Shown: in pieces, positions 8,995-13,899 of the stretch
How the letters are laid out: each line of letters opens with the position of its first letter
Numbering within the stretch: the first letter of the stretch is position 1
Program-made: the position numbers and the translations under genes
From: a virus
Strand: one strand, 5' to 3'
IMG/VR virus record: IMGVR_UViG_3300042400_000421
Location: 1 to 64,000 of that record
Length of the DNA stretch: 64,000 nucleotides
Notes under the pieces: generated by a model
Told to the model about the DNA's origin: nothing
Seen by the model: only the letters and a program-made list of their open reading frames with translations
Database searches by the model: none

Positions 8995-9441
8995 CTAATA
9001 CAGAGTTTCTTGTTTTTGAAACTTATCTGTATATTTAAATAATCTCTTTGTATAGTTTGCCCAATCATTCTTATGCAATTCCGTATGGCAATCGTAGCAA
9101 AGCAAAACCAAATTGGTTAGCTCATCATTTCCTCCATTAGATACCGGAACAATATGATGAACCTGCAATGAATGACTATCAGGTTTTTCCATACAAAGAC
9201 GACATGTAAAGTCATCTCTAAGTTTAATTTGCTCTCTTAGTTCTGACTCAACTCCATGTCTAAATGTTCCATTTTTAATTTTCTTTTGCGCTTTCTTATA
9301 GTTAGCGTGTGTTACTTTGCTATCAATGATTTCTTTACATTTATCATTTTGACACCACCTTTTATTCCTATAGAACTTAGTTTGTGGTATGTAATACATA
9401 CAACTACATCCAGCACAAATAACTTGGCGATTACTTGACAC
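8995..9441 (-). CDS. HNH endonuclease with zinc knuckles
   Basis: 148 residues. The N-terminal third has CAGC and CQNDKC pairs (possible zinc finger). Residues about 75-130 form an HNH nuclease core: CRLC, LQVHHIVPVSNGGND, TNLVLLCYDCHTELH. Starts at GTG 9441, overlapping the upstream TAG. Probably a free-standing homing-type or phage nicking endonuclease; it could also act in DNA processing. Confidence 0.85.
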   Translation of the reverse strand: MSSNRQVICAGCSCMYYIPQTKFYRNKRWCQNDKCKEIIDSKVTHANYKKAQKKIKNGTFRHGVESELREQIKLRDDFTCRLCMEKPDSHSLQVHHIVPVSNGGNDELTNLVLLCYDCHTELHKNDWANYTKRLFKYTDKFQKQETLY

Positions 9442-9737
9442 TATAAAAGACCAATCTTCCTAAGTGGAGATTGACCTTGAGCATCACCAATATTCTTATA
9501 GGAATAGTTCATCCTAATGTTTTTAGAAAAAGCTGCCCCAACTGAATCAGATTGAAATATGCTAATAATTTCGTTGATACCAACATCACTATAAACATAC
9601 GAATCACCTGACTTAAATGTAACACCTAACATTCCTTTATCCCCATCGTTATGATAATGAATAAACTCAATGGAAGATGATTCAACATCTGACCAAGTAA
9701 TATCGACTTTTCCTTTTTTATTTCCAATATTAATCAT
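9441..9737 (-). CDS. KTSC-domain protein
   Basis: 98 residues. The core SSSIEFIHYHNDGDKGMLGV, the strand VTFKSGDSYVY, a VGINEI helix and final NIRMNYSYKNI match the KTSC domain, a small fold found alone or fused to nucleic-acid enzymes; its role is unknown. The ATG overlaps the end of the upstream gene. Confidence 0.7.
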   Translation of the reverse strand: MINIGNKKGKVDITWSDVESSSIEFIHYHNDGDKGMLGVTFKSGDSYVYSDVGINEIISIFQSDSVGAAFSKNIRMNYSYKNIGDAQGQSPLRKIGLL

Positions 9738-10038
9738 CTTTTTTAATTCCTTCTGGCAATTCGCCTTTTTCTATCAAATCTGCGTGATAGGCAATGTTCT
9801 TAGTAATTTCTCTATGTGTTGCAGAATTCGGATTATAAAAGAATTCTTTTACATATCCGGAAACATTAGAGTCAGTTGAATACTGAAAGATTCTTGCATT
9901 CCAATTGTCAGGCTTAAACCCATACTGATTCTGAAACACTTGTGAAGCCATAGACATAGCTTCTTGTACAGATTTTACAGACTCAATTTTAATTGGGAAT
10001 CTATATTCAACAATAAAATATTCATTATGCTTTGGCAT
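9730..10038 (-). CDS. Hypothetical protein, 102 residues
   Basis: Begins MPKHNEYFIVEYRF: strand, helix with SVQEAMSMASQVF, then a beta-rich part, so probably a small alpha/beta fold. The ATG at 10038 overlaps the stop of the membrane-protein gene (TAATG); the longer reading to 10149 covers that gene and is rejected. Confidence 0.7.
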   Translation of the reverse strand: MPKHNEYFIVEYRFPIKIESVKSVQEAMSMASQVFQNQYGFKPDNWNARIFQYSTDSNVSGYVKEFFYNPNSATHREITKNIAYHADLIEKGELPEGIKKDD

Positions 10039-10196
10039 TATACGAGCAAAACTCCTAACATTCCAATAGCATATAGTGTTCCAATAATTATGATAACCGG
10101 GAAGGCTATTACAAATAGAAACATACAGGCTAGAACTAACATAGCGCATCTGATTAGATACATTTTGCTCTCTTTCATATAGAAGGTTCTAGCCAT
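10038..10196 (-). CDS. Small membrane protein, 52 residues
   Basis: Found in a gap. MARTFYMKESKMYLIRCAML, then a long hydrophobic stretch to the C terminus (VLACMFLFVIAFPVIIIIG, LYAIGMLGVLLV), enough for two spans or one long hairpin. TAATG overlap with the next gene; the ATG is 14 bases after the stop of the ATPase/protease-like gene. Function unknown. Confidence 0.65.
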   Translation of the reverse strand: MARTFYMKESKMYLIRCAMLVLACMFLFVIAFPVIIIIGTLYAIGMLGVLLV

Positions 10197-10210: not shown

Positions 10211-11656
10211 CTATTCAATGCTTTCCAAACCATGCCTTAGTTTAAAAATTTCACAAGTCAGATTGCCAATCTTAGAGTCTGCTAAAGACCTAAACAATCT
10301 TCCTTCCATATCTCCATCGCCAACACTTGTCGAATAATGATCATATTCATGAATCAAAGTTGCAACAAGTTCTTCAATTGTTCCATTTATAAGATGTAGG
10401 CTGCTAATAAGAATTACTTTCTCCATTTCAGCATTATCACCATTTGGTACGTGCAAAGTCATACCCAAAGCAGGAACTTCTGAATCCTCATCTTCAATAT
10501 AAACTCCAACAATACCGTTAAAGTTATTTTGAGGAAACACATCTTGAACAATATCAATAGCATTATTAAGCCTTGAATAACTATCAATATCCATAGTATA
10601 TTGATACTTAAATGCCTCACCAAAAATGCTACCAGCTGTCTCAATCTTTTGAGAAGTCAAAAAGTTATATACACCTTCATTGTCAATCTCAATCGCACTA
10701 TAACCTCTTGATTCAATTGTTTTTTCAACATTAAAAGATAGGTCTTTTTGTTCAATGATTACAGATTGAGGAAATACTTTTTCAAATGTATTATTCCATT
10801 CTGGGTTTGTTAAAAATGCATACCCAAATATATGAGCTGGAATGTTACTGGTTTCATAACTATTTTCCAATTGATCATTAACCATTTTGATAAGAACTTC
10901 TTCAATAAGTTCTGAACTCCTCATTTCAGCCAAAGCCCGGACTATTTGCAAATGCATATTCCATTGACTAGCAACAGTTCTCTCTTCATTCAAATCAATA
11001 TCGTGAAGTTCATAATCAAAATAACCTTCCATTGGTTGCAAACTTTCATTGTTTTCGTCAGTAAAAACCAATACGCCTTTTGTATAAACACGAAATGAAC
11101 CATCATAAGGCTCATACAAAGAAAAAGTTTTACCTTCATATATTGGCTCACGATTTACTGAGAAATACTTATCAAAATCCTTATGAATTTTAAGCATCTC
11201 TTCTGTAGCAGTAAAGTAAACAGAAAACTCACCTTCAACGGATTCAATTTTATCAACATCTACGATATCAATTGTCCAGGGCAATCCGTTAAGCGTATGC
11301 TCATCCATTGCATTAGCGACTACTTCACGATAAATCTGAAAGTCATTTGTCCACGAAAGAATACCTGCTTCTGAAGTAAAAGACGAAGGCTTTTCATAAT
11401 CATCATATTTATAAAAGATGCAAGGGATATCGTCATCATCTTTTACGACATATTGAAGAACATATTTACCCTTCTTATCGCTTCCTGCAAAAGCCCAGTC
11501 CATTCCTTTTCTAATTGCAGCAATTGGGGCAAACTTAATACCAGAACCAAACTGACCTATTGTCTCATTGTTTTCTCTCTTAGTAGACAAACCTAATTTC
11601 TCAAGGCCAAGACGATTTACTTCTTTAACCTGATTTGTGACTTTGATGTATTTCAT
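10211..11656 (-). CDS. Hsp90/GHKL-like and HExxH metalloprotease-like fusion
   Basis: 481 residues. Residues 32-43 (TIGQFGSGIKFA) closely resemble the ATP-lid motif of Hsp90 (IGQFGVGF-type), and 110-119 (REVVANAMDE) resemble the N-box of GHKL ATPases (E-x3-N-A-x-D). The order is reversed relative to Hsp90, where the N-box comes first. Near the C terminus 436-440 reads HEYDH inside ELVATLIHEYDHY, a zincin HExxH motif, with Glu451 a possible third ligand. The middle is unassigned. It may be an ATP-gated protease or a protein acting on a host target. Both assignments rest on motifs only; the gene itself is certain. Confidence 0.65.
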   Translation of the reverse strand: MKYIKVTNQVKEVNRLGLEKLGLSTKRENNETIGQFGSGIKFAPIAAIRKGMDWAFAGSDKKGKYVLQYVVKDDDDIPCIFYKYDDYEKPSSFTSEAGILSWTNDFQIYREVVANAMDEHTLNGLPWTIDIVDVDKIESVEGEFSVYFTATEEMLKIHKDFDKYFSVNREPIYEGKTFSLYEPYDGSFRVYTKGVLVFTDENNESLQPMEGYFDYELHDIDLNEERTVASQWNMHLQIVRALAEMRSSELIEEVLIKMVNDQLENSYETSNIPAHIFGYAFLTNPEWNNTFEKVFPQSVIIEQKDLSFNVEKTIESRGYSAIEIDNEGVYNFLTSQKIETAGSIFGEAFKYQYTMDIDSYSRLNNAIDIVQDVFPQNNFNGIVGVYIEDEDSEVPALGMTLHVPNGDNAEMEKVILISSLHLINGTIEELVATLIHEYDHYSTSVGDGDMEGRLFRSLADSKIGNLTCEIFKLRHGLESIE

Positions 11657-11683
11657 AATATATTTCTTTCTTTATGGGCGACA

Positions 11684-11713
11684 TAAAGGGGTGACTTTAT
11701 AGCCACCCCTTTA
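11684..11713 (-). terminator. Hairpin terminator candidate
   Basis: A perfect 10-base stem (TAAAGGGGTG/CACCCCTTTA) with a 10-base loop lies between the stop at 11727 and the start at 11656. On the minus strand only a short T-poor stretch follows (TGTCGCCC), so it may be an RNA stabiliser or weak terminator. Confidence 0.5.
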
Positions 11714-11726
11714 CATCATTGATTGA

Positions 11727-12338
11727 TTAAACTAAATCCAAAGGGATTTCTGTAGGATATAACGCTGCTAAACGCCTTGCTTCACTTCGCTCTTTTTCAG
11801 CATTCAAAGCGTCATTATATTGCGTAAGTTCCATTTGAAACTGTTCACGTAGCAAAGGCTTTGCCTCTTCAATAATCTCATTCTTAGCATCTTCAACTAA
11901 TTTACGAGCTTTTCTCTTATCAAGAGCGTTTTGAATACCATCAACAAAATCTTCATCTTTAAGCAAAAGGTAACGAATAGTTGATTGAATAACTTCAATC
12001 GCAGCTTGACCAGTACTACAAGCATTAACTGGACTAAAACTTTGCATCAAATTTCTAACATTGTTTTCAATATCAAGATCGCTAGTATCAATATACTCAC
12101 TCAAATCCATATGCCGAATTACATCTTTAATGTCGCTTTCAACATCTAAGTTATAGTCAACCCAGCTTTGAATCTTATCATCAAAGTCGTAATTATCAAT
12201 TGATGATTCAATTTTGTCATCAAAATCACAACTGTCAACTGCTAACTGAACCTTATCTTGAAGGTCTTCTAAAATAGCTTCAGCAAGAGTTTCTAAACTT
12301 GATTCGCTAATGTCCATTGTTACTTCTAATTTTTCCAT
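11727..12338 (-). CDS. Hypothetical helical acidic protein
   Basis: 203 residues. The first half contains spaced copies of a D-F-D-D-K-I unit (SCDFDDKIES, NYDFDDKIQS) and other acidic helices; the second half is charged and coiled-coil-like (KRKARKLVEDAKNEIIEEA). The ATG at 12338 follows the upstream stop at 12344; the reading to 12389 is rejected. A scaffold-like or DNA-mimic role is possible, but there is no family evidence. Confidence 0.75.
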   Translation of the reverse strand: MEKLEVTMDISESSLETLAEAILEDLQDKVQLAVDSCDFDDKIESSIDNYDFDDKIQSWVDYNLDVESDIKDVIRHMDLSEYIDTSDLDIENNVRNLMQSFSPVNACSTGQAAIEVIQSTIRYLLLKDEDFVDGIQNALDKRKARKLVEDAKNEIIEEAKPLLREQFQMELTQYNDALNAEKERSEARRLAALYPTEIPLDLV

Positions 12339-12343
12339 TTTAC

Positions 12344-12709
12344 TTATCTTTCTGTTTCTGTTTCTGTTATTTGTGCTGCAAAATCCCAAAGATACGAATT
12401 CTCTGAGATTTTTCTTTCGGCGTGGTCAAACCAATCTGCATAGTGATATTCCATTCCTCTAATGTAACCATCATTATCAGTTTTAACTTCAATCCAATCT
12501 GCTGGCCCACCACCTGACAAAGTAATTTTAATTACTTTATAAGATTCAATATGAGCAGGGAAGTCTGACAATGCTCTTAATGCTTCTTCAACCTTTTCGG
12601 CTTCAGCTTCATTATCTCCAAAAATGTCATTTAGTTCTTCTAAATATTCATTTCTATTTTTCATATATGAGTCAATTATTTGCTCACAATTTTTATCTTC
12701 TGTTTTCAT
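12344..12709 (-). CDS. Hypothetical protein, 121 residues
   Basis: A helical acidic N terminus and a beta-rich core with ITLSGGGPADWIEV and MEYHYADWFDHAERK. The paired Asp-Trp motifs are distinctive, but I cannot assign a family. ATGA overlap with the upstream gene. Confidence 0.75.
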   Translation of the reverse strand: MKTEDKNCEQIIDSYMKNRNEYLEELNDIFGDNEAEAEKVEEALRALSDFPAHIESYKVIKITLSGGGPADWIEVKTDNDGYIRGMEYHYADWFDHAERKISENSYLWDFAAQITETETER

Positions 12710-13461: not shown

Positions 13462-13625
13462 TCTACTTTCTCAATTTCACTATAAGTATAAGAAATGTTA
13501 CCTAAAAATGTAGGAATAGAACTTCTCATTTCTAACATGTCTGCAATTTGTTTTGCTTCATTTAGTGAAACATCATTAAGGATTGTTTCGCTAATGATTT
13601 TTACTCTAATTTTAGTTTCTAACAT
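13458..13625 (-). CDS. Hypothetical protein, 55 residues
   Basis: MLETKIRVKIISETILND, a helix SLNEAKQIADMLE, then strands: a small alpha/beta protein. The ATG at 13625 lies within the last codons of the WhiB gene, so expression is coupled to WhiB. Function unknown. Confidence 0.65.
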   Translation of the reverse strand: MLETKIRVKIISETILNDVSLNEAKQIADMLEMRSSIPTFLGNISYTYSEIEKVE

Positions 13626-13899
13626 TACTTTTAACCACAACTGATGCAATTTCTTTAGTTAGTACAGAATACTGTCTACGAACTTTGCTTCTTTCTTTTG
13701 GGGTTAGTCCACCCCAAATACCAAACTGTTCATCATTTGCAATTGCTTCTTGTAAACATTCAACCGATACTGAACATAATGCGCAAAGTGTTTTCACACT
13801 CCTTACCTGTTCAGCAGCACCTTTCGTACCAATTTCTGGATAGAAAAAGTCAGTCTCTTTGCCTTTGCAATACGCTTCCAAACGCCATTTCTCATTCAT
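13612..13899 (-). CDS. whiB: WhiB-family transcriptional regulator
   Basis: 95 residues with the four cysteines of the Wbl family at 11, 39, 42 and 48 (C-x27-C-x2-C-x5-C), expected to hold a 4Fe-4S cluster. The glycine turn GIWGG is at 60-64 and is followed by basic ERSKVRRQ. Wbl proteins bind the principal sigma factor and tune host transcription; phage copies (for example TM4 WhiB) can repress host whiB genes and affect superinfection. That role here is inference from the family. Confidence 0.93.
   Translation of the reverse strand: MNEKWRLEAYCKGKETDFFYPEIGTKGAAEQVRSVKTLCALCSVSVECLQEAIANDEQFGIWGGLTPKERSKVRRQYSVLTKEIASVVVKSNVRN

Follow-up and report, generated by a model that had tools for sequence, protein, structure and literature searches.

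The gene studied here lies at 10211-11656 on the minus strand of the window, by which we mean the whole stretch of 64,000 nucleotides that was analysed; its source is an IMG/VR virus record of 86,058 bases. It is an open reading frame of 481 aa with an ATG start, and its product is predicted by AlphaFold2 and Foldseek to consist of a permuted GHKL ATPase, an Hsp90-middle/S5-like segment and a minigluzincin-like zincin. The earlier note, made from the sequence alone, had placed IGQFGSG at residues 33-39, REVVANAMDE at 110-119 and HEYDH at 436-440 of this protein; these positions held, and the strand, which it had not given, is minus. No match above the cut-off was found in Pfam, and in PHROGs the protein matched only the unknown-function families 8203 and 6077, together with RIIA (612) at an E-value of 0.04.

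Small accessory genes surround the gene, which lies outside the structural region: the tape measure, tail and terminase genes are far away, at about 23-64 kb. The downstream neighbour (9730-10149, minus) encodes a small protein for which family searches gave nothing significant, and a homologue of it lies just downstream in 62 of 64 genomes. Two upstream genes are each present in 56 of the 64 loci, including the upstream neighbour at 11727-12389 (minus), whose listed start is TTG and whose true start is perhaps internal. A WhiB-family regulator is encoded at 13612-13899 (minus; Pfam E 4e-19), and a WhiB-like gene was found near the ATPase gene in 60/64 loci. The other neighbours in the window include a transglycosylase-like (Rpf-type) protein, an HNH-type open reading frame recognised by eye and three tRNAs. 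Two genes downstream, at 9441-9737 (minus), a small KTSC-domain protein was matched by Pfam above the cut-off. A GC-rich hairpin (AAGGGGTG...CACCCCTTT) with a short T run was noticed by eye at 11681-11711, in the gap that separates the gene from its upstream neighbour, though the scan missed it; it may be a terminator or a processing site. A further upstream neighbour at 12344-12709 (minus), conserved in most of the relatives' loci, gave a weak Pfam match below the cut-off to Tad4 (E 0.0056), an inhibitor of type I Thoeris, and an anti-defence role for this gene is therefore a possibility.

The terminase of the window phage is nearest to those of Streptomyces phages such as LukeCage (42%), and from this we infer that the host is probably an actinobacterium. 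Twelve of 14 contigs picked through a related terminase carried the gene, which suggests that it is common in this phage group; the gene had been known beforehand in several of the 12, and the two contigs without it (54 kb and 39 kb) are perhaps partial.

Searches with a single sequence, either the window protein alone or the jumbo-phage homologue L003, found no relatives. When IMG/VR was searched with an alignment seeded by phage homologues, 254 relatives were confirmed, of which 80 were fetched, so that the description of this architecture as belonging to one phage protein failed. Cellular genomes rarely carry the gene; ten loci were found in GTDB contigs, several of them on viral-looking MAG contigs. 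The GTDB contigs L102-L104, labelled Anaerolinea and Microbacteriaceae, encode proteins almost identical to that of the Pseudomonas Yuavirus and are likely to be phage contigs mis-binned into MAGs.

Motifs of this kind in one sequence alone are not significant, as shuffling of the window protein produced HExxH in 1.8%, GxxGxG in 10% and ExxxNxxD in 19% of cases. We therefore examined conservation in 64 non-redundant full-length sequences, made up of the window protein plus 63 relatives from IMG/VR with about 32-58% identity to it. In the N-terminal part, N8, R15, G22, S24, K26, I33-G34, F36-G37-S38-G39, K41, A43-P44-I45 and R49 were invariant (64/64), and the same was true of R110-E111, N115, D118, E224, R226 and E268 from the N-box onward and of H436-E437, H440, D447, F455-R456 and A459-D460 in the C-terminal part. 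A separate alignment of 52 rows confirmed these residues. Because the exact residues are conserved across the relatives, we take the motifs to be real.

The AlphaFold2 model of the window protein, built from a 52-sequence alignment, had a mean pLDDT of 88.3. The top eight Foldseek matches in the PDB were all Hsp90 (E 1.1e-7 to 5e-4, best probability 1.00), and the next, much weaker ones were an isolated Hsp90 middle domain, MutL and the minigluzincin selecase (probability 0.72). Against a viral library, the named matches, which ranked behind uncharacterised phage proteins, were RIIA of KVP40 (probability 0.99) and, after it, SprT-like proteins. When the phage M6 homologue was modelled as well (pLDDT 88.3), Hsp90 was retrieved again (E 3.8e-3). 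The model thus predicts a GHKL alpha/beta sandwich, and the nucleotide pocket was not measured. The TM-scores to Hsp90 were low, about 0.25 under sequential alignment; such a value is expected when a permutant is aligned sequentially, but it is no proof of permutation.

In the predicted structure, a strand (residues 2-9) is followed by a helix (15-21), the lid, a helix (39-49), four strands, the N-box helix (105-123) and strands at 127-133 and 143-149. The ATP lid and G2 box occupy residues 22-39 (GLSTKRENNETIGQFGSG; 11540-11593, minus), an invariant stretch that aligns with the lid of Hsp90, RIIA and MORC2. The G2 box has the form GxxGxG with the lid before it, and its G34, G37 and G39 are invariant and match MORC2 and HtpG; the earlier note had called the IGQFGSG block an ATP lid, which we correct, as this block is the G2 box and the lid is formed by GLSTKR ahead of it. 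The N-box helix (11288-11344, minus) carries the pattern E-xxx-N-xx-D and corresponds to R-E-xxx-N-xx-D of Hsp90; R110, E111, N115 and D118 are invariant in all 84 sequences compared, and hhalign aligned it to the N-boxes of Hsp90 and RIIA. The LNEER loop at residues 222-226 (10979-10993, minus) holds R226, a candidate for the catalytic Arg of the Hsp90-middle/S5 domain; E224 and R226 are invariant in the 84 sequences, and the loop is aligned by hhalign to LNVSRE of Hsp90. It varies among LNEER, INESR and LTEDR with R226 unchanged, and the long Hsp90 alignment ends there; the middle segment alone was not significant.

One GHKL motif is missing. The DxGxG of the G1 box is absent, and Asn is present at the inferred position (N8; NxG in the YuA branch), on the strand of residues 2-9 (11630-11653, minus), whose assignment as the G1-box position is itself inferred. 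Asn in place of the G1 Asp, which contacts adenine, would impair ATP binding in Hsp90, and an altered nucleotide affinity or specificity is thus possible in this family. Family models gave limited support. The Hsp90 family model PF00183 had no match in 52 members, and the best RIIA family model, PHROG_612, reached only E 0.0022 in 5/52 members over a short stretch, which does not establish membership. Sub-threshold matches to sacsin and HATPase_c_3 fell in the same segment as the MORC2 match described below, and for the N-box half HMMER gave no GHKL match, this half being found by profile-profile alignment only. A PADLOC run on an M6-type homologue gave only a weak DrmB match (E 0.0026).

The order of the motifs was examined by profile-profile alignment of the family with Hsp90 (42 sequences) and RIIA (10 sequences). 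For this, the natural sequence was aligned locally for each block on its own, and no rearranged sequence was built. Against Hsp90, the two best local alignments joined residues 18-229 to 108-341 (score 41.0; ending on LNEERTV against LNVSREIL) and residues 108-152 to 33-73 (34.3); against RIIA, they joined 105-129 to 41-65 (44.1) and 18-41 to 101-124 (36.3). The block order is therefore opposite to that of both, with G2 before the N-box. In 60 shuffles of the template columns for each comparison, the first alignment scored at most 25.7 and 23.4 and the second at most 19.2 and 20.3, and as a positive control RIIA and Hsp90 were colinear with a score of 107. A profile of residues 1-100 compared with all PDB sequences matched only MORC2 and HtpG, at weak E-values of 0.05 to 1.2, and mapped to residues 78-145 of MORC2, a span that holds its ATP lid (82-103). 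It is reported that Ser87 of MORC2 contacts the beta-phosphate and that its active-site Asn39 lies upstream of the lid (PMC5811534). By alignment, S24 falls on Ser87, whereas the family Asn (N115) lies downstream of the lid, unlike Asn39. The swapped order that the earlier note had claimed held in the comparisons with Hsp90 and RIIA and, as far as the N-terminal half goes, with MORC2.

G2 preceded the N-box in all 84 sequences of both branches, and the standard GHKL order of N-box, G1 and G2 was not followed; across this set there is almost no variation in the residues of the lid/G2, the N-box and the Arg loop. The reversed-order alignments to Hsp90 and RIIA score well above the shuffled controls, and a circularly permuted GHKL domain is therefore the best explanation of the swap. 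In this reading, the N-box helix and the strand following it, which normally precede the G1 box, have probably been relocated behind the core strands.

The C-terminal domain (residues 358-475; 10232-10585, minus; approximate boundaries taken from the model) is predicted to be minigluzincin-like, resembling Wss1 and SprT, with Foldseek matches to selecase and abylysin. Selecase was retrieved with the window model, and selecase, jannalysin and abylysin were retrieved with the M6 model at probabilities mostly of 0.9-1.00; the M6 model superposed on abylysin with an rmsd of 3.4 A over 83 columns. A profile of this part had Wss1 as its best PDB match (E 0.01), while the Pfam matches were sub-threshold for both SprT-like (best 3.7e-4, 21/45 members) and WLM (best 5.8e-3, 5/45 members). 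Wss1 and Spartan have been classed as minigluzincins (PMC4559962, PMC5557861), so the fold and sequence evidence agree.

The HExxH motif HEYDH (residues 436-440; 10337-10351, minus) lies in the helix 427-443 of this predicted domain, which supports the earlier claim of a zincin HExxH. Only Asp residues are invariant as candidates for the third zinc ligand, which is usually a His in the loop or a Glu on the helix. D447 (10316-10318, minus) is invariant in both the HExxH clade and the EExxH branch and is the candidate suggested by the Wss1 alignment, being located at H440+7 in the loop that corresponds to that of Wss1, where the third ligand is His125 at H119+6. The alternative, D460 (10277-10279, minus), is on the last helix and is invariant in the HExxH clade but absent in the EExxH branch. 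Zinc binding and proteolysis by this domain are inferred from sequence and model, and the geometry of the zinc site was not measured.

The metal site divides the family. The pattern HE..H..D..FR..AD was present in 66/66 sequences of one group, which forms one side of a single branch with a support of 100/100, and EE..H..D..Q was present in all 15 sequences of a set from YuA, prophages, jumbo phages, Bacteroidota and Pirellulales; in three of the 84 sequences the site is degenerate or absent. All 84 sequences keep the ATPase residues, while 18 have an altered metal site or none. As the EExxH branch demonstrates, some relatives can do without the HExxH site; with its ATPase intact and its metal site altered, that branch may use the clamp without classical proteolysis.

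The protein of the Yuaviruses M6 and YuA (AN14_30, YuA gp29) is homologous over the ATPase module and the C-terminal domain and has the same permuted order, but it is only about 25% identical, is 392 aa long, has EExxH for HExxH and lacks the FRxxAD signature. Proteins of the Yuavirus type are annotated as 'HATPase' (Epa38), as 'hydrolase, metallopeptidase' (AN14) or as hypothetical. In AN14, the gene just before the homologue (L004:3546-3911) is likewise annotated 'putative hydrolase, metallopeptidase'.

Among known systems, Hsp90/HtpG gives the best PDB fold matches and shares the R-E-xxx-N-xx-D N-box, the GQFGxG G2 box and, as a candidate, the LNxxR middle-domain loop. It differs in that the window protein has the N-box after G2, an apparent Asn for the G1 Asp and no PF00183 match, and carries a zincin where Hsp90 has its C-terminal dimerisation domain. 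T4 RIIA is also a phage protein, with a VVRELITNMIDAH N-box, an SSK lid, a GGFGLGSK G2 box, an SRE loop and a variable C-terminal domain; however, it has the standard order colinear with Hsp90, is about 725 aa long, is usually encoded beside rIIB and has no described zincin. Plain membership of the Hsp90 or RIIA families was rejected on the lack of a family-model match and the reversed order. MORC2 and the prokaryotic MORC/paraMORC proteins combine a GHKL domain with an S5-type Arg/Lys finger, and MORC2 is the closest PDB sequence match of residues 15-82 (FGKSAKR..IGQYGNGLK versus LGLSTKR..IGQFGSGIK), but MORC2 has the standard order, with Asn39 before the lid, and no zincin. The minigluzincins (selecase, abylysin, Wss1/WLM, SprT/Spartan) share the fold, the HExxH helix, the T..HE..H...G..D pattern and the Wss1 profile match; the window protein differs from them in its candidates for the third ligand, which are Asp residues (D447 or D460) and not His or Glu, in the fusion behind an ATPase and in an EExxH branch that is off-motif.

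On balance we favour, by a modest margin, the reading that this gene encodes an early ATP-gated clamp, in which a permuted GHKL domain and an Hsp90-middle/S5-like segment are joined to a Wss1/SprT-like zincin; its activities are inferred. ATP binding would close a dimer, as in Hsp90 and MORC, and R226 would be the basic residue near the phosphates, which is usually supplied by the S5 or middle domains (PMC2292703). The ATPase cycle may then load or gate the zinc-protease domain. The protein would act in infection outside the virion, probably early, and would probably cleave or remodel a protein target in the host cell; the leading target classes are DNA-bound proteins, by the resemblance to Wss1/Spartan and MORC, and host defence factors, by that to RIIA. 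Early expression is inferred only from gene positions, namely the small accessory genes of the window and, in Yuavirus, a location near the primase and a nucleotide pyrophosphohydrolase. This reading is limited by the lack of a family model at the cut-off, the apparent G1 Asn, the low TM-scores, the N-box half without HMMER support and the EExxH relatives that manage without an HExxH site.

The earlier note had proposed an ATP-controlled protease aimed at a host factor or phage protein, and had named a fold search and the conservation of Asn115, Asp118, Gly37/Gly39, His436, Glu437 and His440 as its computational checks. Both were passed, with an Hsp90-like N-terminal side, a HExxH helix in a minigluzincin-like domain and all the named residues invariant, so that its reading of the motifs as a GHKL ATP site is supported. 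ATP hydrolysis, zinc binding, protein cleavage and a host target remain inference.

The strongest alternative, which we regard as possible, is a RIIA-like counter-defence or lysis-protection protein, in which the ATPase clamp works and the zincin-like domain is mainly binding or structural. RIIA is the best named viral fold match and shares motifs, and the ATPase residues are kept throughout the family while the metal site is not; moreover, rIIA has been classed among the counter-defence proteins and described as having a GHKL domain and a C-terminal domain that varies (PMC7824862). On the other hand, no RIIB-like neighbour was recognised among the genes tested, the motif order is reversed relative to RIIA, and catalysis in the HExxH clade is favoured by the fact that H436, E437, H440 and D447 never vary in it. 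A role as chaperone or protease in virion assembly would agree with the Hsp90-like fold, and proteases are common in phage head maturation; this is very unlikely, as a long distance separates the gene from the structural genes and the Yuavirus homologue is near the primase, and a virion protease is disfavoured by gene position. Chance motifs in an unrelated protein, for which the frequency of such motifs in one sequence and the lack of a Pfam match above the cut-off could be cited, are all but excluded and were rejected by conservation and fold, since the exact catalytic residues are invariant, two independent models give fold matches and the alignments exceed the shuffled controls.

GHKL ATPases, which include gyrase, Hsp90, histidine kinases, MutL, MORC and RIIA, are among the best-studied ATP switches. 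In the open-licence literature searched, which misses most subscription papers, we found no description of a permuted GHKL/Bergerat domain and none of a GHKL-minigluzincin fusion; within that scope this agrees with the earlier note, which knew of no described phage protein with this motif pair. The parts are of known kinds, and their combination and topology seem to be new. Returning to the clamp reading, a bolder form of it holds that this is the first known natural GHKL circular permutant, acting as an ATP-gated clamp protease that removes or inactivates host or DNA-bound proteins early, with an EExxH sister that keeps the clamp; here the evidence falls a little short of making it the better bet. 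If true, a natural circular permutation kept across a broad phage family would mean that the catalytic geometry survives rewiring, and a GHKL domain joined directly to a zincin would make a compact ATP-gated protease of another type than the AAA+ proteases. Because relatives occur in the cultured Pseudomonas phages YuA and M6, the function and the possible RIIA-type counter-defence link are directly testable.

The relatives also vary in length. Many relatives (L020-L063, most of the long ones) continue past the zincin with a further, unidentified C-terminal domain of about 100 aa, which the window protein lacks. One relative (L084, 884-2665) is 593 aa long with HExxH at residue 538, and thus some 100 aa have been inserted upstream of its zincin site.
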